Origin: Antedon mediterranea
Taxonomy: Eukaryota > Echinodermata > Crinoidea > Comatulida > Antedonidae
Assembly: GCF_964355755.1 (NCBI RefSeq)
Contig: NC_092680.1
Span: 1,396,001 to 1,460,000 of the forward strand
Length of the DNA stretch: 64,000 nt
Reading direction: 5' to 3'
Part shown: positions 8-27,370 of the stretch, piece after piece
Layout: every line of letters begins with the position of its first letter
Numbering within the stretch: the first letter of the stretch is position 1
Notes under the pieces: model-generated
What the model was told of the DNA's origin: nothing
Seen by the model: only the letters and a program-made list of their open reading frames with translations
The model's database searches: none
Program-made: the position numbers and the translations under genes

Positions 8-3000
8 CTATGCTACACTGAACTCAGTGACATTCAAGCCATCCACTGGAACTCACCATTAAAGTTGCAGGTGAAGAACAAACACATTGATTTCTTTCGC
101 AACCTTTACCTAAGTTTTCTAGAATATGACGGCAATTTACTACGAAGAGAATTATTTAGCTGTGATCATCTAAACAGTAACATATCAACACAAGAAACTA
201 AGGTAATAAATACAAGTGTTTAATTTTTAATACCAGATTGATTGATTGATTCCAAGAAATGAACGGTTTATATCCACAACACTGTACTTGTCTTTGACTT
301 GTTGATGGACAATAGGAACCAAGAAAGCCCACTGACCCGCTGTTTACCATCATTTATTTATTTTTTTATGACATATTTTTGTGGATAGGTGCCTTACCTA
401 GATATAGTTCCATGAATGTACGATTTTAGAAACGATTTAAGCTCTGTCTACATTATCAATCTAGTTGACAAAAAAAAGTGTGATGTGCCTAAATATGGTA
501 GTTATATGCTCAAATATGGTAGTGATATGACAACATCATGTCTGTATTATTGAAACATTTTAAGTACAACACAGGACCGAGAGCTGTACATAAAACATAG
601 TATTTTATACTGATGTATTGTCCCTTTGACTGGGCACATCACATTTTTGTCTGTCAGTTTGATAGTGTAGACAGAGCTTTAGACTACCATGATGTGTTCT
701 TTGATTTCTTGATGCGCAATGGCAACCAAGAATAGCACTGACCCTTGATTCTTGTTAACCATCATTTATTTATGCTTTTATCATGTGTTGTTTGTATCTG
801 ATAGCCACCTGACCTAGATGAGTCTGATGAGTGCTATGATTTTAGAAGAGAAAGAATACTGATGCACAGAACACATCTATATTATCTAGATTATGAGTAC
901 ACACCAGTAAGTTACTTAAGAATACTGATGCACAGAACACGTCTATATTATCTAGATTATGAGTACACACCAGTAAGTTACTTAAGAATACTGATGCACA
1001 GAACACATCTATATTATCTAGATTATGAGTACACACCAGTAAGTTACTTAAGAATACTGATGCACAGAACACATCTATATTATCTAGATTATGAGTACAC
1101 ACCAGTAAGTTACTTAAGAATACTGATGCACAGAACACATCTATATTATCTAGATTATGAGTACACACCAGTAAGTTACTTAAGAATACTGATGCACAGA
1201 ACACATCTATATTATCTAGATTATGAGTACACACCAGTAAGTTACTTAAGAATACTGATGCACAGAACACATCTATATTATCTAGATTATGAGTACACAC
1301 CAGTAAGTTACTTAAGAATACTGATGCACAGAACACATCTATATTATCTAGATTATGAGTACACACCAGTAAGTTACTTAAGAATACTGATGCACAGAAC
1401 ACATCTATATTATCTAGATTATGAGTACACACCAGTAAGTTACTTAAGAATACTGATGCACAGAACACATCTATATTATCTAGATTATGAGTACACACCA
1501 GTAAGTTACTTAAGAATACTGATGCACAGAACACATCTATATTATCTAGATTATGAGTACACACCAGTAAGTTACTTAAGAATACTGATGCACAGAACAC
1601 ATCTATATTATCTAGATTATGAGTACACACCAGTAAGTTACTTAAGAATACTGATGCATAGGACACGTCTATATTATCTAGATTATGAGTACACACCAGT
1701 AAGTTACTTAAGAATACTGATGCACAGAACACATCTATATTATCTAGATTATGAGTACACACCAGTAAGTTACTTAAGAATACTGATGCACAGAACACAT
1801 CTATATTATCTAGATTATGAGTACACACCAGTAAGTTACTTAAGAATACTGATGCATAGGACACGTCTATATTATCTAGATTATGAGTACACACCAGTAA
1901 GTTACTTAAGAATACTGATGCACAGAACACATCTATATTATCTAGATTATGAGTACACACCAGTAAGTTACTTAAGAATACTGATGCATAGGACACATCT
2001 ATATTATCTAGATTATGAGTACACACCAGTAAGTTACTTAAGAATACTGATGCACAGAACACATCTATATTATCTAGATTATGAGTACACACCAGTAAGT
2101 TACTTAAGAATACTGATGCACAGAACACATCTATATTATCTAGATTATGAGTACACACCAGTAAGTTACTTAAGAATACTGATGCACAGAACACATCTAT
2201 ATTATCTAGATTATGAGTACACACCAGTAAGTTACTTAAGAATACTGATGCACAGAACACATCTATATTATCTAGATTATGAGTACACACCAGTAAGTTA
2301 CTTAAGAATACTGATGCACAGAACACATCTATATTATCTAGATTATGAGTACACACCAGTAAGTTACTAAAGAATACTGATGCACAGAACACATCTATAT
2401 TATCTAGATTATGAGTACACACCAGTAAGTTACTTAAGAATACTGATGCACAGAACACATCTATATTATCTAGATTATGAGTACACACCAGTAAGTTACT
2501 TAAGAATACTGATGCACAGAACACATCTATATTATCTAGATTATGAGTACACACCAGTAAGTTACTTAAGAATACTGATGCACAGAACACATCTATATTA
2601 TCTAGATTATGAGTACACACCAGTAAGTTACTTAAGAATACTGATGCACAGAACACATCTATATTATCTAGATTATGAGTACACACCAGTAAGTTACTAA
2701 AGAATACTGATGCACAGAACACATCTATATTATCTAGGTTATGAGTACACACCAGTAAGTTACTTAAGAATACTGATGCATAGGACACATCTATATTATC
2801 TAGATTATGAGTACACACCAGTAAGTTACTTAAGAATACTGATGCACAGAACACATCTATATTATCTAGATTATGAGTACACACCAGTAAGTTACTTAAG
2901 AATACTGATGCACAGAACACATCTATATTATCTAGATTATGAGTACACACCAGTAAGTTACTTAAGAATACTGATGCATAGGACACATCTATATTATCTA

Positions 3001-6000
3001 GATTATGAGTACACACCAGTAAGTTACTTAAGAATACTGATGCACAGAACACATCTATATTATCTAGATTATGAGTACACACCAGTAAGTTACTTAAGAA
3101 TACTGATGCACAGAACACATCTATATTATCTAGATTATGAGTACACACCAGTAAGTTACTTAAGAATACTGATGCACAGAACACGTCTATATTATCTAGA
3201 TTATGAGTACACACCAGTAAGTTACTTAAGAATACTGATGCACAGAACACATCTATATTATCTAGATAATGAGTACACACCAGTAAGTTACTTAAGAATA
3301 CTGATGCACAGAACACATCTATATTATCTAGATTATGAGTACACACCAGTAAGTTACTAAAGAATACTGATGCACAGAACACATCTATATTATCTAGATT
3401 ATGAGTACACACCAGTAAGTTACTTAAGAATACTGATGCACAGAACACATCTATATTATCTAGATTATGAGTACACACCAGTAAGTTACTTAAGAATACT
3501 GATGCACAGAACACATCTATATTATCTAGATTATGAGTACACACCAGTAAGTTACTTAAGAATACTGATGCACAGAACACATCTATATTATCTAGATTAT
3601 GAGTACACACCAGTAAGTTACTTAAGAATACTGATGCACAGAACACGTCTATATTATCTAGATTATGAGTACACACCAGTAAGTTACTTAAGAATACTGA
3701 TGCACAGAACACATCTATATTATCTAGATTATGAGTACACACCAGTAAGTTACTTAAGAATACTGATGCACAGAACACATCTATATTATCTAGATTATGA
3801 GTACACACCAGTAAGTTACTTAAGAATACTGATGCACAGAACACATCTATATTATCTAGATTATGAGTACACACCAGTAAGTTACTAAAGAATACTGATG
3901 CACAGAACACATCTATATTATCTAGATTATGAGTACACACCAGTAAGTTACTTAAGAATACTGATGCACAGAACACATCTATATTATCTAGATTATGAGT
4001 ACACACCAGTAAGTTACTTAAGAATACTGATGCACAGAACACATCTATATTATCTAGATTATGAGTACACACCAGTAAGTTACTTAAGAATACTGATGCA
4101 CAGAACACGTCTATATTATCTAGAATATGAGTACACACCAGTAAGTTAGTAATGTATATTTAAAGTCATATGTCATGCTATACAAATAGAAGTTAACATT
4201 ATTATTTGATAAAAGTTGGGTAGAAGAAGTCTACACTATTAAAACTAGTGTGTGATGTGTGATGTGCCCAGATATGGTAGTGATATGACATCATCATGTC
4301 CATATATAGACACATCACATTTTTGTTGTCACATCAAGTTTGATAGTGTAGACAGGGCTATAGAACCTTCAGTGTAGATTTGTTTGTCAACAAAGTGAAG
4401 TGTGCATGCTATATATTTTTTTTTTCAGAAACCAGATGGCAATGATGTGACGTTAGTAGCTCAGCTTTCTATGGATAGATTGCAAATGCTAGAAGCTCTC
4501 TGTAAACATTGGGATGGTAGGTCTACTTACTGTCATTCTGGTGGAAATATATACTTTTATATACTTTGTTGAAATATTGTATGAAAATATGGTAATTTAT
4601 GGGACTGATTAATACAATCATAGCTACAGTGATGTAAAATTAAATTTATATAATATTTATTTTCTAAATCAAATGTACTTTTTTTATTTATTAATTTTTT
4701 GTAAACACCAATTTAGTCTTAATAAGAACATTATTTTAAGCTGGGAAAACATGGCTCTGTAAATACACACTACAGTCATTGTCAATAAACATCGTTTGCA
4801 AATATTAAAATTAAGATTAATATAGCGAAAAATCATTATGAAACTGATTCACAATATTTAATTAACAATTATTTATATTTTTTTTAACAGGACCAATGAG
4901 TCTTGCAGTTTATATGTCAGATGCTGATGCTCAACAGTTTTTAGTTTATGTGCAAACATCTGAAATATTAAGAAGTAGAAAAGACGTTAGTTATCATGTT
5001 GTTTATAAAGATGGGGTAGGTTATTGAATTTATTTATCTGTTATAATAATGCTAGAAGTTCTCTCATGTACAAACATCCGAAATATTAAAAAGTAGAAAA
5101 GATGTTTTCATTTTGTTTATGAGATTAATATGCTTGATTCTTTTAAATTATATTTTGTCCTTTTATGCTGTTTTATGTTTCACTTTCTTTACAAAATACT
5201 ATAAAAGTAGAATTATTTTCAAAGAACGCAACTTTTAGACATTTTTACATTGGCCTTTTATTGTATGTTTTTCTTTTGATAGCTACTTTAAATGCGAACA
5301 TCTTTGCCTTTTTTTAATCCATCCATCCAGAAATTTCTATTTCTTATAGTATGTCTTCAATTTTTCAATAAGTTTAAATAAAAAATAAATAAAAAATGAC
5401 CAGTTCAAACTTGAGTTATACGAATTTCTGCTTTTTGTAGTATGTCTTTAATTTGTCAAAAAGTAAAAAAAAAAAATTTAATAAATGACCTGTTTGCACT
5501 TTTATGTGCATTATTGTTGTTTATTTCTATAGCAATTTTACCCTGTTAATCACCTACGCAACACAGCTTTAAACGAGGTCAAGACGCCGTATGTGTTCCT
5601 GGCTGATATAGACTTTTTACCAATGTATGGATTATATAGCTATCTTAGAAAGATGATCAGTACATTGGATGTAGCCAATACTAATAAGGTACTGTACAAC
5701 ACTCTATTATGCATCAATTATTTAAGGCTTTAAAGTATGCGTTATATAAGCTCTGTCTACACTATCAAACTAGTTTGACAAAAAAAGTGTGATGTGTCCA
5801 AATGTGGTAGTGATATGCTTAAATATGGTAGTGATATGACATTATCATGTCCATATATGGGCATATCACATTTTTTTGTCACATAAAGTTTGATAGACAG
5901 AGCTTGAAGAGTATCTTTCTACTATCTAAGTTTATTAGTCTCTTTTTTGTTTTGTTCTATGATTGTATAATTTAAACTACAATAAAAAGTGCATTTTATT

Positions 6001-12415: not shown

Positions 12416-15400
12416 GGTCAACAGTGGAAGTTGTATAGTGAAATACAAGTACACAAGTATATTATCCTATCAAACATGATTTCTACTACAATCACAAAGG
12501 TAGGTATTATAAATTACCAACCAATGAATGTACCAATTATTTCACTTTAATTATTAAATAATGCTTATGGACCAAAATTTTGTTTAATATAAATAAAATA
12601 ATCAGAAGAAATTGCATTTTAATGGGAGATGATTATCTGGGGATGTTTCTGATTTTTTATGAGCTTTAATAAAAATGACAATACTGTTCAATGCATTGTT
12701 TTGTTGAATTGCAGGGTTTGGATAAAAACATCAAGGTATATGCTTGCACAAGTAAAACTCAGGTATTCATTTCAATTGTATATTAAAAGTGGTATCCTCA
12801 AAATAGTATTTTTGTCAATGTTACTAAATACCAAAAAAATTCTATCCCCATTTGGAGTACATTGCGTGAAATATATACACACACAGTGTACCATAATGGT
12901 GGGGATTCCTCCTATGTTTCTAGATATCAGTAAAAGATGAAAGCCAATTACAATCACAGGATGAAGACATTTACTGTACAACTAGTAAGGTACCAGATGC
13001 ACCACAAGTCACTGACCAGTCCAATGAACAACCACAAGCCACTGACCTGTCCAATAAACCACCACAAGCCACTGACCAGTCCAATAAACCACCACAAGCC
13101 ACTGACCAGTCCAATAAACACTCACTTTGTACTGATCAGAATGAGGAATGCAATTCTGGAGCTGGTACATCATACCAAGTAAAACCCTAAACATATCTAT
13201 TTTAAAGCTCTGTCTACACTATGAAACAGGTTTGCCCTGGTATGCCCAAATATGGTAGTAATATGACATCATCATGTCAATTATGGTCACATCACATTTT
13301 TTTTTCACATAAAGTTTGATAGTGTAGACAAGGCTTTAAAGATACAATCAATATATTGTTGACGCATTACATGCATGAGATGAAATTCCAAATATCTAAT
13401 TGAATCAGAACAAAATATAACAATTATGATATTACAAACCATTGTATTTTTAGGGAATGGTGACAGATATAATTGATTCTAAGGCTGGCATTTATGAACT
13501 AGACGGTAGTATAAGGTAAAATTAATACTTTTAGAGAAATTAATAAATTAGTTTCGATACTAAATAATACTGATCATAACCTCACTGTTGACACATCCCA
13601 CTTAGCACCAACTGTACTGATAAACCACTTAAATGTTTACAGCGATTTGTACTTTCTTTTGAGTTACTAATCTATTTATCCATATCTGATTTGATTTCAA
13701 GAGTTTTACTCCCAAAACTAAACAAAAACAATACTGTACTTTACATGTGTAAGGCTCTGTCTACACTATCAAACTTTATGTGACAAAAAAAAAATTTGGC
13801 ATATCACTACCATATTTGAGCTCTTCACACTACTTTTGTAAAACTAGTTTGGTAGTGTAGACAGAGCTTTAAATTTTTCTATATTTTTTTTTTTACATGG
13901 AAACGTTTCTTGTCATTTATTATTTCTGTTTTTTTCTTTATAGATTGTATATGACATACCTTAATAAAGATGTTGGCTGTGTTGTGCCCAACATTAAGGC
14001 TGGTTGCTATGTTACTGTATACAATGCTCACTTCAAAAAACTTTCAAAGGTAAAAATGATCTTAAAATTGTATTGTACATTTCACTTTTACATTTTGTTT
14101 TTCCCAAAATAAAAGTTTTACAAATTGATCTTTCAGGTTGTTTATCTTGTGTGTTGTATGCGATCTTGTGTTGAGGTTTTACCATTCAAGTCAACATTAG
14201 TAAGTTATCTTGATGATTGCAATGTATCCCATTCTTTGATTTGTGGTTTTTTTTTCTTTCTTTATGTTCTTTTTCCTTCTGTTATGTTTTCCTTTGGGAC
14301 TAAAGCCTTGTTCAAACTGAACATTATCCAAATCCATTGATTAGTTAGTGTGAACAGTCTAGTAAACTTTTCTTATATTAGGTAAGGTACACATGCCACA
14401 AAATAAAACTAAGTTTAGCTTCCAAACAAACACTTGTTTGACCAGTAAAACATATATCGAGTCAGTAAAACTAACTGGGCAAGTTTTCCTCACAAATGTA
14501 ATGGCTAGTAAACTGATTTTATAGTAAGTAAAACAAGACAAGTTATACGAAGAATCTAATATCTAAATCTCTTATTCTCAATGTATTTTATTTATTTGTG
14601 TGTGTTTCTTAATCCAGTGTTTAGTTTCTTTGGATGACCCTGTTATCAAACTAATCACACAATTTGTTCCTGCGTTTTCCCTGTTGACCCACATGCACAA
14701 AATGCTAAAACAACTCACACACAAGCTTCCAAAAAATGTCCACAGGTGAGGTTTTTTGTTTAGCAGGAATATTAAACATAAATTTCATTATTGAAATGTA
14801 ATGTACAGCACAGTGAACTCTCTCAATGCTTGACACCATTGGGCTGACCTAATTTGTCTGGTTTTCTGGGAAGTATCTAAATGTGTAAAAAAGAATGAGG
14901 ACCTATGGTATCAAGAAAAATCTTCTAAGCTTCTAATATTCTAATATTTTTTTTAATAATTTAATTTTGATTTATTTACTACTTTTTTAGAAAAATAAGT
15001 TTAATAATTGGAACAATATTGGAAAGTAATGGTATGCAGAGAGTAACGCCACGGAAAAGAAATATTTATAATGAATTTTTTAATACACCTCACCAATCCT
15101 GTGTAGTGGATGATGTTCATAAAAACCAATTACAGGTACAGTAAACATGATCCCTATCTTTGCATTGAAATGGTTTATGAACGTCCCCTCGTGATGTAAA
15201 TCATCTTTTTGGGATTTGGAGGGCTATCCCTAGTAGTATGCAAATTATTGGGTTTTTTGTGTGTGCGTGTTCTTCCTGTCTTGTATAAAATAATTCAAAT
15301 CAAGTTACTTAATTACTGTCCTGGAGCACTTTACAATCTCTTCTTCGCCTACATGATGACAAAATTGGTAATGGTGTTTTGATCTGTAGCTGTATAAACA

Positions 15401-18400: not shown

Positions 18401-21400
18401 GTATCCGTTAGGACTTGTTCCACAAGCTGTGTTATATTTACAGTACGTATACTTTAAAAATTGGTTTACATAGAAAAACTACATTGCTATCATTAAGCTC
18501 TGTCTACACTATCAAACTTTATGTGACAAAAAAAATGTGATGTGCCCATATATGTACATGATGATGTCATATCACTACCATATTTGGGGAAATTTCTAAA
18601 TTTCCAAAACTCCATGGGAAAAAAACAAGAACAATTTAGTGTATTTATTCATGTAGACATTTTATTTTTGTAGAGGAATTGAAGTTGATAGTTACAAAGG
18701 CAGGTTACGTTGTCAAAGTGGACCTTTAACATCAATACAGGTATTACAAATACCCAGTAGTGTTGAAGATAGGTAAGTTGACCTATATGTGGACCTTTAA
18801 CATCAACACAGGTATTTCAAATACCAAGTAGCGCTGAAGATAGGTAAAGTTGACCTATATATGTGGACCTTTAACATCAACACAAGTATTACAAATACCC
18901 AGTACCGCTGAAGATAGGTAAGTTGACCTATGTGGACCTTTAACATCAATACAGGTATTACAAATACCCAGTACTGCTGAAGATAGGTAAGTTGACTTAT
19001 ATATGTGGACCTTTAACATCAATACATATATTACAAATACCCAGTAGCGCTAAAGAAGGTAAGTTGACCTATATGTGGACCTTTACATCAATACAGGTAT
19101 TACAAATACCCAGTACCGCTGAAGATAGGTAAGTTGACCTATGTGGACCTTTAACATCAATACATATATTACAAATACCCAGTAGCGCTAAAGATAGGTA
19201 AGTTGACCTATATATGTGGACCTTTAACATCAATACAGGTATTTCAAATACCCAGTAGCGCTGAAGATAGGTAAGTTGACCTATATATGTGGACCTTTAA
19301 CATCAATACAGGTATTTCAAATACCCAGTAGCGCTGAAGATAGGTAAGTTGACCTATATATGTGGACCTTTAACATCAATACAGGTATTTTAAATACCCA
19401 GTAGCGCTGAAGATAGGTAAGTTGACCTATATATTCTTTAAAATAATATACTAGATAAAATTTTAATTCTAAATATGTCTTTGATCTTATGTATAATGAA
19501 ACCCAGTTCTCGGTAACAAATATGTTAATATTTATTCTCAAATTCTTACAGTACTATACTTTTATGCAAGTTTGGGCAATTTTGTGTTATTTATGTGGTA
19601 TCACAGATGCCGTGATTATTACATTATATACATTTTATTTTGTTTATTAAAAAAGTGAATTGTTTACAACTCCCTGGACAGAAGTTGTTCATTTATAATA
19701 TATAATAACAACCTTTTTTTTTTAACCCAGCACAACAAACTTATTTGATACAAAGGACCTCTCTAAAGCTCCACCAAGATATGTCATTCATATATTGCAG
19801 TCACTTCTTTCTGGAACCAAAGAGAATGATTTTATTTTAAATGGATACATTAATACAATATACAGTCTAGAGATCAGGTAAGGTTACAACTTAACAGATT
19901 CTTAAGCTCTGTCTACACAATTAAACATGTGATGTGCCTATATACATACACGATGTCGAGTTTATGTAATATTCCGTATGACCATTTACAGGCAGAGGAA
20001 ACGGGCGGATAGATACAGATTCTATGTGGGACAAACTAGATAGTTTTCTGCTTACCGTTACCGTTTTAAAAATTATTTTACAGATGGATATGCTATATGT
20101 GCAGATCTAATCAGTGTCGATGCTCAGCACAATCACAGGCCGCTAAGGGGGAAATGAGTTTTAAAGCAAGGTAGCTTATTATTTATTATTTAATATTTCA
20201 TAAAAATCATGTATGTACATATACATGGGAAAAGAAAACAACATGATTATACCATGGAATCTTTAGTACATTAACAGGTCATAGAAGGACCATTGATTTT
20301 CCCACTACTAAACCAAACACGTCCCAATTCCATAGATTGTATGTGATGCACAGCATAATGACAGTAGTATAATTCAGAGGCCTGAGGCTCCTGGTTTAGG
20401 AACCCTAAGTGGCCCTCCAACACTGGAGGCTTCAAACTTTTTTATCTCTTTTCGACATATTGTAATGCCTATTTCCTCTGGGCACTGCTCAGGTGCCCCC
20501 ATTAGCTTATAATGATCTGATTTGTTATTTCAGAGTTTTGATTGATGATGGAACTGCTGCTGTTAATGTATGGTTGTCAGACACTGAGTCACTTGCATAC
20601 ATCTTATGCCTTTCTCATCTAAGATGGCAGCAGATATTAGATGTTGTTCAGGCTAAGGGACCATTCCATTTCAACTTCTTTAATTCTACAAATGATCAGG
20701 TAACACAACAGCAAATACGTACTCACTAATTCTCTCTCTTTGACAGAGTTTGAATTGTTATAAAGCATGTCACCCATCAAACTGCAATGCCACTATCATC
20801 CAAAGAGTAAACATTTAAAAATTTGTAGATTCATACTTACTTGATCACATGATCATTTTAACCAATCACTAGATGATAAATGTTTGAGCTATAATAGAAA
20901 CTATAAAGATGATTTTATTTTGGTTTTATTTTTTTTTTTATAAATCTTTTTAGAGTAATGCTGTACTAAAGTTACTATGGAAGCTGTGCAGAAGCTGTAA
21001 AGTAAAGAGACCAGTACAGTTACTCTGTTCCTCTGCCTACCTTAGGCAAAGTGGTAAGTAGGCCTATATGATTTGGCTCTAATAATAATAATATATAATT
21101 GTTTTTAATCGATCAACAATTATTCATAACCATGGACCAAACAAATCCCTGGACTCACTCCATTTACACTAACCAAGCTGTTAGAATAAAAGACTGACTT
21201 CATATTACACTAACCAAGCTGTTAGAATAAAAGACTCACTCCATATTACACTAACCAAGCTGTTAGAATAAAAGACTGACTTCATATTACACTAACCAAG
21301 CTGTTAAAATAAAAGACTCACTTCATATTACACTAACCAAGCTGTTAGAATAAAAGACTCACTTCATATTACACTAACCAAGCTGTTAGAATAAAAGACT

Positions 21401-22347
21401 CACTCCATATTACACTAACCAAGCTGTTAGAATAAAAGACTCACTTCATATTATACTAACCAAGCTGTTAGAATAAAAGACTCACTCCATATTACACTAA
21501 CCAAGCTGTTAAAATAAAAGACTCACTTCATATTACACTAACCAAGCTGTTAAAATAAAAGACTCACTCCATATTACACTAACCAAGCTGTTAGAATAAA
21601 AGACTCACTTCATATTACACTAACCAAGCTGTTAGAATAAAAGACTCACTCCATATTACACTAACCAAGCTGTTAAAATAAAAGACTCACTTCATATTAC
21701 ACTAACCAAGCTGTTAGAATAAAAGACTCACTTCATATTACACCAAGCTGTTAGAATAAAAGACTCACTTCATATTACACTAACCAAGCTGTTAAAATAA
21801 AAGACTCACTTCATATTACACTAACCAAGCTGTTAAAATAAAAGACTCACTCCATATTACACTAACCAAGCTGTTAAAATAAAAGACTCACTCCATATTA
21901 CACTAACCAAGCTGTTAAAATAAAAGACTCACTTCATATTACACTAACCAAGCTGTTAAAATAAAAGACTCACTTCATATTACACTAACCAAGCTGTTAG
22001 AATAAAACCTTGTACAACAAAATAAAACAGTTATAAATGTTGTTTTTCTAACCTAATGTGTTACTAGTGCTGTTAAAACATTCCTAATAATATCTGTCAT
22101 TTGAAATAAATGTTTACTTATCATTGATGGCAGTTGTGTCTCTTTGATGGAAAGCGTCAAGAAGAGCGTTCGCTAAAGCATGGTTAATCTGGTTTCCTAC
22201 TACGCTAATCCGTAGTTAATTTCAAATAAGTTTCTGAGCATGTCAATCCCAACAATTTTTAATCCACAATGATTTTTTTATTATTATTCAGATGATAAAA
22301 GTGATCAATTATTTGTCAGTGCAATGGTAAACATGTATAGCAGTTAA
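12416..22347 (+). CDS. CTC1: CTC1, CST telomere-maintenance complex subunit (19 exons, ends uncertain)
   Basis: CTC1 with STN1 and TEN1 binds telomeric single-stranded DNA and recruits polymerase alpha-primase for C-strand fill-in. Exons: 12416-12499, 12715-12762, 12924-13178, 13454-13515, 13944-14049, 14137-14199, 14618-14745, 14991-15135, 15627-15755, 16142-16520, 16648-17021, 17269-17324, 18218-18442, 18674-18772, 19731-19877, 20084-20170, 20534-20699, 20954-21053, 22292-22347. All phases agree over 902 codons. Diagnostic stretches similar to human CTC1 are AGIYELDG, the OB-fold strand LVGFLSSNPDTGVLRLND, the zinc-ribbon cysteines in WICYMCRSNQCRC, and RVLIDDGTAAVNVW. The human N-terminal OB folds (about 250 residues) are not found. 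At the C-terminus the frame reads through a GTAAAC donor to TAA at 22345, some 60 residues short of human CTC1, so a further exon may be missing. Confidence 0.92.
12999..13118 (+). repeat. 30-bp coding repeat in a CTC1 exon (10 residues x 4)
   Basis: Inside the exon 12924-13178, four copies of 30 bp encode variants of PPQATDQSNK: the first two diverge, the last two are identical. The linker is Gln/Asn/Ser/Thr/Pro-rich and low in hydrophobic residues, so probably disordered. It precedes the OB fold that contains AGIYELDG. Confidence 0.9.
13205..13337. mobile_element. MITE family A, copy 7
   Basis: AAAGCTCTGTCTACACTATG at the left and TTTGATAGTGTAGACAAGGC at the right. It starts 26 bp after the CTC1 donor at 13179. 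Confidence 0.87.
13751..13870. mobile_element. MITE family A, copy 8
   Basis: AGGCTCTGTCTACACTATCA at the left and GTTTGGTAGTGTAGACAGAG at the right. The core is shortened. It lies in the CTC1 intron before the exon at 13944. Confidence 0.85.
17121..17268. mobile_element. MITE family A, copy 9, truncated at a CTC1 splice acceptor
   Basis: Left TIR AAGCTCTGTCTACTCTAACC and the usual core are present, with a CAATT microsatellite inserted near 17208. The right half stops at TTGTCACAG, and the CTC1 exon begins at 17269. The family consensus there continues TTGTCACATAAAGTTTGATAG, so the right TIR is missing and the element end supplies the pyrimidine-rich acceptor region. Confidence 0.8.
17517..17842. 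repeat. 20-bp minisatellite
   Basis: About 16 copies of CATTTGACATATACCACTGT with single-base variants (TATTCCACTG, TATCCCACTG, TTTACCACTG). It lies in the CTC1 intron between exons 17269 and 18218. Confidence 0.95.
18493..18581. mobile_element. MITE family A, copy 10 (partial)
   Basis: Only the left part is present: AAGCTCTGTCTACACTATCA, core ATGTGATGTGCCCATATATG, then the centre ACATGATGATGTCAT. The right TIR is lost. Confidence 0.75.
18719..19433 (+). repeat. About 72-bp x 10 array of CTC1 exon end plus 5' splice site
   Basis: The last 53 nt of the CTC1 exon 18674-18772 and its GTAAGTTGACCTAT donor are repeated ten times. Donors fall at 18773, 18844, 18918, 18987, 19059, 19129, 19198, 19271, 19344 and 19417 (spacing 69 to 74). 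Each unit holds GGACCTTTAACATCAA, an exon-like stretch ending GAAGATAG, and GTAAGT. One unit (19059) reads GAAGGTAAGT, with the TAG missing; another (18844) is GTAAAGTT. Reading past the first donor meets TAA at once in the CTC1 frame (AGG TAA), so only the first donor preserves the protein. Confidence 0.95.
19902..19960. mobile_element. MITE family A, copy 11 (left end only)
   Basis: TTAAGCTCTGTCTACACAAT, then ATGTGATGTGCCTATATACA, then it dissolves. A remnant in the CTC1 intron after exon 19877. Confidence 0.6.
21152..22007. repeat. 40-bp x about 21 minisatellite
   Basis: Unit CACTAACCAAGCTGTTAGAA + TAAAAGACTCACTTCATATTA, with a G/A change in TTAGAA/TTAAAA and C/T in CTCCAT/TTCCAT-like positions alternating along the array. 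One unit is shortened near 21742. It fills most of the CTC1 intron between 21053 and 22292, starting about 100 bp after the donor. Confidence 0.95.
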
Positions 22348-23019
22348 ACAGGAAAGATGGTAAACATGTATAGCAGTTAAACAGGAAAGATGCCACACAT
22401 GTATAGCAGTTAAACAGGAAAGATGCCACACATGTATAGCAGTTAAACAGGAAAGATGCCACACATGTATAGCAGTTAAACAGGAAAGATGCCACACATG
22501 TATCGCAGTTAAACAGGAAAGATGCCACACATGTATAGCAGTTAAACAGGAAAGATGCCACACATGTATAGCAGTTAAACAGGAAAGATGCCACACAGGT
22601 ATAGCAGTTAAACAGGAAAGATGCCACACATGTATAGCAGTTAAACAGGAAAGATGCCACACATGTATAGCAGTTAAACAGGAAAGATGCCACACAGGTA
22701 TAGCAGTTAAACAGGAAAGATGCCACACATGTATAGCAGTTAAACAGGAAAGATGCCACACATGTATAGCAGTTAAACAGGAAAGATGCCACACATGTAT
22801 AGCAGTTAAACAGGAAAGATGCCACACAGGTATAGCAGTTAAACAGGAAAGATGCCACACATGTATAGCAGTTAAACAGGAAAGATGCCACACATGTATA
22901 GCAGTTAAACAGGAAAGATGCCACACATGTATAGCAGTTAAACAGGAAAGATGCCACACATGTATAGCAGTTAAACAGGAAAGATGCCACACATGTATAG
23001 CAGTTAAACAGGAAAGATG
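22324..23019 (+). repeat. 33-bp x 21 array starting on the last visible CTC1 donor
   Basis: Units of 33 bp start at 22324. The first two begin ATGGTAAACATGTATAGCAG, matching the exon end ATG and its GTAAAC donor; the other 19 begin ATGCCACACATG or a one-base variant. All share TATAGCAGTTAAACAGGAAAG. Each unit keeps the in-frame TAA. Long minus-strand frames across it only reflect that 33 is divisible by three. Confidence 0.95.
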
Positions 23020-23329
23020 CAACCAATACAAGACAAGTAATGTTTTAATGCAGTTTATTTGAAAATTAAACTAAAATTAAAGTAAAATTGATATAAAGTT
23101 GAATAAAGATGTATGAAAAATATATGTTGATGTATTTACTATACTACAGGGAGAAGTAAAGAGATTTTGTTAAATCAAATTAGTAATCGTTATTATTGAT
23201 ATGTGAACATATAGAACATTACCATCAAATTATTGTCTTGTGAGAACGAATTATGTGAAAAAAATATAAAAAATAGCAAAATGTTGATCTTTCTGTTTTT
23301 TAAATAACTTTTCGAACAAATCAAAAGTA

Positions 23330-23745
23330 AATATGCCATAATATTGCCATATATGCACATATATGGTGTTATCATCATCTTATAGAGCCATAGTAAGTAG
23401 TTATGTCGAAAAATAAAAGGGTCGAAATTTAGTCATTTTTCGAAAATTTCCCTGTACTATAGTACAGGTTTTTTTTTCGAAAAATGCCTAAAATATCCAC
23501 TTTTTTAAATTCAATAATTATGCCATAATATTGCCATATATGCACATATATGGTGTTATCATCATCTTATAGAGCCAAGGAGCCATAGTAACTAGTTATG
23601 TCGAAAAATAAAAGGGTCGAAATTTAGTCATTTTTAGAAAATTTCCCCAGGTATTTTTTCGATAAATGCCCAAAATATCCACTTTTTTAAATTCAATAAT
23701 TATGCAATAATATTGCCATATATATGCATATATTGTGTTATCATC
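23330..23745. repeat. About 190-bp direct repeats preceding the satellite
   Basis: About two to three copies share TGCCATATATGCACATATAT, GTGTTATCATCATCTTATAG, and a GTCGAAAAATAAAAGGGTCG arm. A further partial copy closes the satellite at 27196-27370, so the satellite seems to have grown inside a copy of this unit. Confidence 0.75.
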
Positions 23746-26700
23746 ATCTTATAGAGTCAAAGTAACTAGTTATGTTGAAAAATAAAAGGGTCGAAATTTG
23801 TTCATTTTTCGAAAAATGGCCGATTTTCGACCCTTTTATTTTTTGACAGAAATGGTTACTATTGCATAATAAATATGCGCAGAGGCGAATAATGGGTTCT
23901 GCGCATGTCAATAGTGGTATAGTAACCAGTTTTATCGAAAAATAAAAAGGTCGAAAATTGGCCATTTATTTTAAAAAATCCCTGTACTATAGTACAGGAA
24001 AATTTTCGAAAAATGTCCGATTTTCGACCCTTTTATTTTTTGACATAAATGGTTACTATTGCATAATAAACATGCGCATAGTCGAATAATGGTTTCTGCG
24101 CATGTCAATTGTGCTATAGTAACCAGTTTTGACATAAATGGTTACTATAGCATAATAAACATGCGCAGAGGCGAATAATGGGTTCTGCGCATGTCAATAG
24201 TGGTATAGTAACCAGTTTTATCGAAAAATAAAAAGGTCGAAAATTTGCAATTTTTTGAAAAAATCCCTGTACTATAGTACAGGGAAATTTTTGAAAAATG
24301 TCCGATTTTCGACCCTTTAATGTTTTGATATAAACGGTTACTATTGCATAATAAACATGCGCAGAGTCGAATAATGGGTTCTGCGCATGTCAATTGTGCT
24401 ATAGTAACCAGTTTTGACATAAATGGTTACTATAGCATAATAAACATGCGCAGAGGCGAATAATGGGTTCTGCGTATGTCAATAGTGGTATAGTAACCAG
24501 TTTTATCGAAAAATAAAAAGGTCGAAAATTTGCAATTTTTTGAAAAAATCCCTGTACTATATATAGTACAGGGAAATTTTCGAAAAATTTCCGATTTTCG
24601 ACCCTTTAATTTTTTGATATAAACGGTTACTATTGCATAAAAAACATGCGCAGAGTCGAATAATGGGTTCTGCGCATGTCAATTGTGCTATAGTAACCAG
24701 TTTTGACATAAATGGTTACTATTGCATAATAAACATGCGCAAAGTCGAATAATGGGTTCTGCGCATGTCAATTATGCTATAGTAACCAGTTTTGACATAA
24801 ATGGTTACTATAGCATAATAAACATACGCAGAGGCGAATAATGGGTTCTATGTATGTCAATAGTGGTATAGTAACCAGTTTTATCGAAAAATAAAAAGGT
24901 CGAAAATGTGCAATTTTTTGAAAAAATCCCTGTACTATAGTACAGGGAAATTTTCGAAAAATGTCCGATTTTCGACCCTTTAAATTTTTGATATAAACGG
25001 TTACTATTGCATAATAAACATGCGCAGATTCGAATAATGGGTTCTGCGCATGTCAATTGTGCTATAGTAACCAGTTTTGACATAAATGGTTACTATAGCA
25101 TAATAAACATGCGCAGAGGCGAATAATGGGTTCTGCGTATGTCAATAGTGGTATAGTAACCAGTTTTATCGAAAAATAAAAAGGTCGAAAATTTGCAATT
25201 TTTTGAAAAAATCCCTGTACTATATATAGTACAGGGAAATTTTCGAAAAATGTCCGATTTTCGACCCTTTAATTTTTTGATATAAACGGTTACTATTGCA
25301 TAATAAACATGCGCAGAGTCGAATAATGGGTTCTGCGCATGTCAATTGTGCTATAGTAACCAGTTTTGACATAAATGGTTACTATAGCATAACAAACATG
25401 CGCAGAGGCGAATAATGGGTTCTGCGTATGTCAATAGTGGTATAGTAACCAGTTTTATCGAAAAATAAAAAGGTCGAAAATTTGCAATTTTTTGAAAAAA
25501 TCCCTGTACTATAGTACAGGGAAATTTTCGAAAAATGTCCGATTTTCGACCCTTTAATTTTTTGATATAAACGGTTACTATTGCATAATAAACATGCGCA
25601 GAGTCGAATAATGGGTTCTGCGCATGTCAATTGTGCTATAGTAACCAGTTTTGACATAAATGGTTACTATAGCATAATAAACATGCGCAGAGGCGAATAA
25701 TGGGTTCTGCGTATGTCAATAGTGGTATAGTAACCAGTTTTATCGAAAAATAAAAAGGTCGAAAATTTGCAATTTTTTGAAAAAATCCCTGTACTATAGT
25801 ACAGGGAAATTTTCGAAAAATATCCGATTTTCGACCCTTTAATTTTTTGATATAAACGGTTACTATTGCATAATAAACATGCGCAGAGTCGAATAATGGG
25901 TTCTGCGCATGTCAATTGTGCTATAGTAACCAGTTTTGACATAAATGGTTACTATAGCATAATAAACATGCGCAGAGGCGAATAATGGGTTCTGCGTATG
26001 TCAATAGTGGTATAGTAACCAGTTTTATCGAAAAATAAAAAGGTCGAAAATTTGCAATTTTTTGAAAAAATCCCTGTACTAAAGTACAGGGAAATTTTCG
26101 AAAAATGTCCGATTTTCGACCCTTTAATTTTTTGATATAAACGGTTACTATTGCATAATAAACATGCGCAGAGTCGAATAATGGGTTCTGCGCATGTCAA
26201 TTGTGCTATAGTAACCAGTTTTGACATAAATGGTTACTATAGCATAATAAACATGCGCAGAGGCGAATAATGGGTTCTGCGTATGTCAATAGTGGTATAG
26301 TAACCAGTTTTATCGAAAAATAAAAAGGTCGAAAATTTGCAATTTTTTGAAAAAATCCCTGTACTATATATAGTACAGGGAAATTTTCGAAAAATGTCCG
26401 ATTTTCGACCCTTTAATTTTTTGATATAAACGGTTACTATTGCATAATAAACATGCGCAGAGTCAAATAATGGGTTCTGCGCATGTCAATTGTGCTATAG
26501 TAACCAGTTTTGACATAAATGGTTACTATAGCATAATAAACATGCGCAGAGGCGAATAATGGGTTCTGCGTATGTCAATAGTGGTATAGTAACCAGTTTT
26601 ATCGAAAAATAAAAAGGTCGAAAATTTGCAATTTTTTGAAAAAATCCCTGTACTATAGTACAGGGAAATTTTCGAAATATGTCCGATTTTCGACCCTTTA

Positions 26701-27195
26701 ATTTTTTGATATAAACGGTTACTATTGCATAATAAACATGCGCAGAGTCGAATAATGGGTTCTGCGCATGTCAATTGTGCTATAGTAACCAGTTTTGACA
26801 TAAATGGTTACTATAGCATAATAAACATGCGCAGAGGCGAATAATGGGTTCTGCGTAATGTCAATAGTGGTATAGTAACCAGTTTTATCGAAAAATAAAA
26901 GGTCGAAAATTTGCAATTTTTTGAAAAAATCCCTGTACTATAGTACAGGGAAATTTTCGAAAAATGTCCGATTTTCGACCCTTTTATTTTTTTATATAAA
27001 TGGTTACTATTGCATAATAAACATGCGCAGAGTCGAATAATGGGTTCTGCGCATGTCAATTGTGCTATCATAACCATATTTGACATAAATGGTTACTATA
27101 GCATAATAAACATGCGCAGAGGCGAATAATGTGTTCTGCGCATGTCAATAGTGGTATAGTAACCAGTTTTATCGAAAAATAAAAAGGTCGAAAAT
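23745..27195. repeat. About 285-bp satellite built of nested palindromes (about 12 units)
   Basis: Each unit has a large palindrome of about 140 bp with arms running TAGTAACC(A)GTTTTATCGA..AGGTCGAAAAT and centred on CCCTGTACTATAGTACAGGG, a perfect 20-bp palindrome. One or two smaller palindromes of about 75 bp follow: GGTTACTATAGCATAATAAA, ACATGCGCAGA / TCTGCGCATGT, ATTGTGCTATAGTAACC. Unit spacing is 285 (25382, 25667, 25952), with 287-bp and longer variants where the centre reads CTATATATAG. The repeated 91-codon minus frames are by-products. It lies between the convergent CTC1 and UNC13 genes. Confidence 0.93.
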
Positions 27196-27370
27196 TGGCA
27201 TATATTGTGTTATTATCATCTTATAGAACCATAGTAACTAGTAATGTCGAAAAATAAAGGGGTCGAAATTTGGCAATTTTTCAAAAATTTCCATATATGC
27301 AAAATATTGAATTTTTAAAATTAATTTATTATTCAATATTATTGCTATATGTGCACATATTATAGTGTTA

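Follow-up and report, generated by a model that had tools for sequence, protein, structure and literature searches.

A 66-bp minisatellite multiplies a LARGE exon/intron junction in Antedon mediterranea, in a genome where such arrays recur

An exon end that is repeated in tandem together with its 5' splice site raises the question of how the splicing machinery chooses among identical donors. Such a case is found in the LARGE gene of the crinoid Antedon mediterranea, in a stretch of 64,000 nucleotides (hereafter the window), where the original prediction had asked how 50 competing donors are handled by the spliceosome. The question proved genuine, and several independent natural test genes are now at hand.

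Structure of the LARGE array and identity of the gene

Unit-by-unit comparison of the array showed 50 full tandem copies of a 66-bp unit (Table 1), and TRF reported 852-4148 with a period of 66, 50.0 copies, 98% matches and a score of 6433; the period and copy number first read from the letters alone were thus recovered. Each unit consists of the last 55 nt of the exon, and not 45 nt as initially described, followed by the 11 nt that open the intron (GTAAGTTACTT). The expected GTAAGT is present in 50/50 units and the donors are all identical. Only 8 of the 66 columns are variable, 35 units are identical to the consensus, and nine bases (CCAGTAAGT) are unchanged in every unit. The variants are scattered and common to distant units, without long block duplication, and the most diverged unit (4 differences) is the outermost one, unit 50. 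A run of 3.3 kb of near-identical units is not explicable by chance. The array occurs once in the 354-Mb genome, which is assembled at chromosome scale in 18 contigs.

When exons 805-906, 4429-4514, 4891-5015 and 5533-5688 were joined with those downstream, the product matched human LARGE1 over 356 aa (E=5.2e-180) and was recognised by Pfam as Glyco_transf_49 (PF13896). LARGE is a single locus; apart from it, the sole match was an uninterrupted relative on C10 with 36% identity. The two acceptors predicted to flank the array, ending at 804 and 4428, were both confirmed. The product obtained by splicing from donor 1 aligns gap-free across the junction with human LARGE1, in which HYEYEP is followed at this place by AADSTDVTLVAQ, and the human protein carries no insertion there. 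The vertebrate spacing anticipated for the first donor therefore holds, and the gap-free match through donor 1 identifies it as the authentic one. Use of donor k adds 22(k-1) residues. The frame remains open for donors 2-23, and donors 24-50 would end the protein since an in-frame TAA follows donor 23; the same codon lies just past the donor in units 28, 38 and 46.

These TAA codons rule out a coding minisatellite, that is, one open reading frame with an in-frame protein repeat. Recursive splicing was also rejected: the unit reads GAGTACACACCA directly before GTAAGT, without a pyrimidine tract and without AG/GT. Sequestration of donors by RNA structure was discarded as well, the fold of the array being no better than that of shuffled sequences (z=-0.24). 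The intron upstream of the exon measures 602 nt, and the downstream one 3522 nt from donor 1 or 288 nt from donor 50. A decayed acceptor-side duplicate of the exon sits about 410 bp upstream. A short dispersed MITE-like element with ends GTGTAGACAGAGCT and AGCTCTGTCTACAC is present at 4245-4365, 5745-5905, 18490-18580 and other positions, and has many intronic copies.

Table 1. Features of the LARGE and CTC1 loci (window positions) and of junction arrays elsewhere in the genome
Feature	Location	Strand	Unit and copies	Evidence
LARGE exon with multiplied junction	805-906	+		AG at 803-804, GTAAGT at 907, human LARGE1 match
LARGE tandem array	852-4151	+	66 bp x 50	TRF and unit-by-unit comparison
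First LARGE donor GTAAGT, putatively the one used	907-912	+		gap-free LARGE1 alignment through donor
50th and last LARGE donor GTAAGT	4141-4146	+		288 nt from acceptor 4428
Next LARGE exon	4429-4514	+		acceptor TTTTTTTTTCAG ending 4428 (AG 4427-4428), LARGE1 match
Decayed older copy of the start of exon 805-906 with the end of the preceding intron, spanning the acceptor	285-440	+		alignment, 82% mean column identity
CTC1 exon with multiplied end	18674-18772	+		Pfam PF15489 E=2.5e-21; solved CTC1 structures
CTC1 exon-end array with AG/GTAAGT	18718-19434	+	~73 bp x 10, 9/10 donors intact	TRF and donor count
CTC1 last-codons/stop array (TAA 22345-22347), into 3'UTR	22331-23020	+	33 bp, ~21 copies	TRF and translation ..VSAMVNMYSS and stop
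Axonemal dynein heavy chain, exon-end array with donor	C1:19363306-19368754 and slightly beyond	-	68 bp x 82	DNAH3 match 2e-14
STAT exon-end array			69 bp x 10	STAT_alpha 4e-10
ABCC exon-end array			58 bp x 8	match ~5e-5
UTP20 exon-end array			44 bp x 3	match 2e-18
Exon-end array, gene without assigned name	C4		55 bp x 6-7	
Two related donor arrays	C6		53 bp, 25 and 17 donors	
PARP1 exon end, donor GTATGC	C10, 4982-6315 of sampled locus		29 bp x 46, 100% identity	solved structures 1e-11
Acceptor-side array before OST-HTH/LOTUS exon	C1:41142100-41143300	-	61 bp, ~4-5 copies	OST-HTH 4e-8

Donor and acceptor arrays elsewhere in the genome

The original prediction had further held that a minisatellite spans a functional exon/intron junction and that this arrangement is unusual. 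The former was upheld; the latter held only in part, as similar arrays were found in CTC1, dynein, PARP1, STAT, ABCC and UTP20 and are known as mirages in amphioxus. Exon-end donor arrays are present in at least six genes besides LARGE (CTC1, DNAH, PARP1, STAT, ABCC and UTP20); those of DNAH, STAT, ABCC and UTP20, and those on C4 and C6, came from genome searches for three successive donors with reading of the flanks, and that of PARP1 from a random sample. These tallies are lower bounds, from which no density is claimed. The 10-copy array of CTC1 lies in the same window about 18 kb from the LARGE array, and a further array in CTC1 spans its stop codon. The dynein array is built of higher-order repeats in which whole blocks of unit types recur, and its 82 donors are all perfect. 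Some donors are broken in the ABCC and UTP20 arrays. At the two C6 loci, the first exon resembles a signal peptide, a resemblance without homology support. Two other repeats were noted in the window: a 30-bp repeat of 4 copies at 13000-13119, seemingly within a coding exon and in frame (10-aa repeat), and, at 23472-27200, a complex satellite whose periods are 89 and 285 bp.

The acceptor side can be multiplied too. Searches of the genome for acceptor arrays gave one true case, the OST-HTH locus, where the OST-HTH exon is carried by the last copy, the one closest to the exon body. An asymmetry between donors and acceptors had been suggested by the count of zero acceptor arrays among the TTTTNCAGG loci, one of which is the UTP20 donor array in antisense; given the OST-HTH array, it is not established. 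The idea that donor motifs are enriched in tandem arrays was also dropped. The triple AGGTAAGT gave 82+295 matches versus 1474+119 for the reversed control, and no enrichment is claimed because a small number of large satellites account for most of these matches. Many arrays with donor motifs were non-coding satellites (L035, L036, L041-L048 and L056-L058) and were set aside. A 34-bp satellite (AGGTGAGTAACATTAGATCATTAGGGACAGGTAT) forms several clusters across 2 Mb (C3:20094304-22073804).

To what extent do arrays favour junctions? Nine stretches of 9 kb drawn at random (81 kb in total) contained about six arrays of at least 5 copies, and one of them, that of PARP1, was a donor array. Besides the arrays that span donors, there is one over an acceptor and one over a stop codon, while further arrays lie within introns or coding sequence. 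From this range and from the sample, the placement of arrays looks indifferent to junctions, and survival would do the selecting.

Choice of the donor and origin of the array

In all donor arrays, the exon runs on into copy 1, and the copies after it are intronic. Among the later donors of eight arrays (CTC1, DNAH, STAT, ABCC, UTP20, PARP1 and the two on C6), 0/193 keep the frame without a stop. The C4 gene has one open later case, at an extra near-match site that is not a clear GTAAGT donor copy. As no later donor is open in these eight arrays and a stop follows LARGE donors 24-50, copy 1 appears to be the main site, and we infer from the reading frames that, even with up to 82 identical donors, splicing must normally be confined to copy 1. 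Such a choice fits exon definition. The 5' end of the U1 snRNA encoded here is of the usual kind (ATACTTACCTG), and at least 42 U1 snRNA genes form a tandem array (C5:15664856-15752909) with units mostly of about 1.86 kb. In human data, the upstream 5' splice site is preferred when donors are near-equal and introns are long, and the intron-nearest donor is preferred when introns are short (PMC9225289). For LARGE, an exon rule and an intron rule predict opposite ends of the array given the intron lengths from donors 1 and 50: a rule of intron proximity would favour the last donor, against donor 1.

The explanation that we consider very probable is a junction-spanning minisatellite of the mirage type, in which the donor closest to the upstream acceptor is selected through exon definition and the array is tolerated without a needed function. 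The first step would have been a tandem duplication comprising the last 55 nt of the LARGE exon and the 11 nt of intron next to them; growth to 50 copies would have followed by slippage or unequal exchange, as suggested by the variants common to distant units, the block repeats of the dynein array and the divergence of the last LARGE unit. Copies 2-50 would be intronic, and the transcript would present 50 equal U1 sites. Donor 1 would be picked as the nearest to acceptor 804 across the exon, defining 102 nt compared to 168, 234 and up to 3336 nt for the following ones, and the array would be removed within a 3.5-kb intron.

Three other explanations were weighed against this one. If several donors were used, donors 2-23 would produce LARGE isoforms with 1-22 extra 22-aa repeats, a length ladder made by splicing. 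These donors keep the frame without a stop, all LARGE donors are of equal strength, and the exons of 168-300 nt defined by donors 2-4 are of ordinary size; however, human LARGE1 has no insertion at the corresponding place, and the other arrays offer no open alternative, which implies that the cell already limits use to copy 1 there. We therefore regard this ladder as improbable. There is likewise only a small chance that a few donors at the start of the 50 see measurable use, in which case one LARGE allele would give isoforms lengthened stepwise by in-frame 22-aa repeats, to an extent that varies with the array among individuals. An expansion of the array during assembly, the animal having few units, is less probable still: long arrays are error-prone and the dynein array contains large repeated blocks, but the assembly is of chromosome scale, the LARGE variants are scattered without such blocks, and arrays of many sizes similar to that of LARGE occur in unrelated genes.

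A regulatory role of the LARGE array, for instance as a U1 decoy or as a buffer slowing or tuning LARGE splicing, can be related to the integrity of the donors. Across seven arrays, donor columns vary less than the rest (1/42 versus 58/396, Fisher p=0.03), in a test that is weak as units were located by donor context and columns are not independent. Together with the intact donors of LARGE (50) and dynein (82), this mild lack of variation could hint at a constraint. Against such a role, like structures with differing units and copy numbers are found in unrelated genes, the RNA fold of the LARGE array is ordinary, and the ABCC and UTP20 arrays contain broken donors; we consider it very unlikely, and retain the tolerated, junction-spanning minisatellite as the most probable explanation of the LARGE array.

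Relation to mirages and other known systems

Mirages are minisatellite-like tandem duplications of exon/intron boundaries that have been described in amphioxus for Adh3, the globins BflGb6 and BflGb9, troponin C and PGBD5 (PMC3087553, PMC3902484). The same reports describe 5' and 3' boundaries, length instability and RT-PCR results suggesting regular splicing (PMC3087553, PMC3902484), and mirages were reported to leave splicing undisturbed (PMC3087553). As to length in the present genome, of which one haplotype was covered, the two related C6 loci differ, with 25 and 17 donors. The LARGE array shares their main characters, its units spanning an exon/intron boundary with a splice signal of the AG/GT type (GTAAGT in all LARGE units), and the 66-bp unit fits the 10-160 bp of mirages. 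At the level of the genome, donor and acceptor sides both occur, edge units escape homogenisation and splicing would be regular, as in amphioxus. The LARGE array is thus a real, well-formed and very long mirage, of a class already known. What is new is the copy number, up to 50-82 near-identical copies compared to 3-6 in amphioxus BflGb6, and the recurrence in many genes of one genome, whereas published mirages are all cephalochordate.

Two other systems bear comparison. In the Rogers model of intron gain by AGGT tandem duplication (potato RdRp, PMC4974935), a tandem duplication within a coding exon likewise gives rise to extra splice signals; in LARGE, in contrast, no new intron arises, as the junction pre-existed and the copies lie inside an existing intron. 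The internal tandem repeats at boundaries in human segmental duplications are similar in that minisatellite units alter gene structure at a boundary, but they average about 4 x 30 bp, half of them coding, and arrays of tens of intact donors are not described in the available text of that report (PMC2812944).

These arrays show that a single genome can contain many mirages, some of great length. They provide naturally occurring genes in which 10 to 82 near-identical donors are present and only the first gives protein, and at least one mirrored acceptor case. Such genes offer a test of the strictness of exon definition and of how it depends on the number of copies and on the length of the exon (102 + 66n in LARGE). 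Most work on the choice between equivalent 5' splice sites has relied on minigenes in which a few sites were duplicated. A genome search for the GFP family (PF01353) gave no match, and its positive control likewise gave none. The GC content of the present genome is about 32%, compared to about 41% in Branchiostoma.
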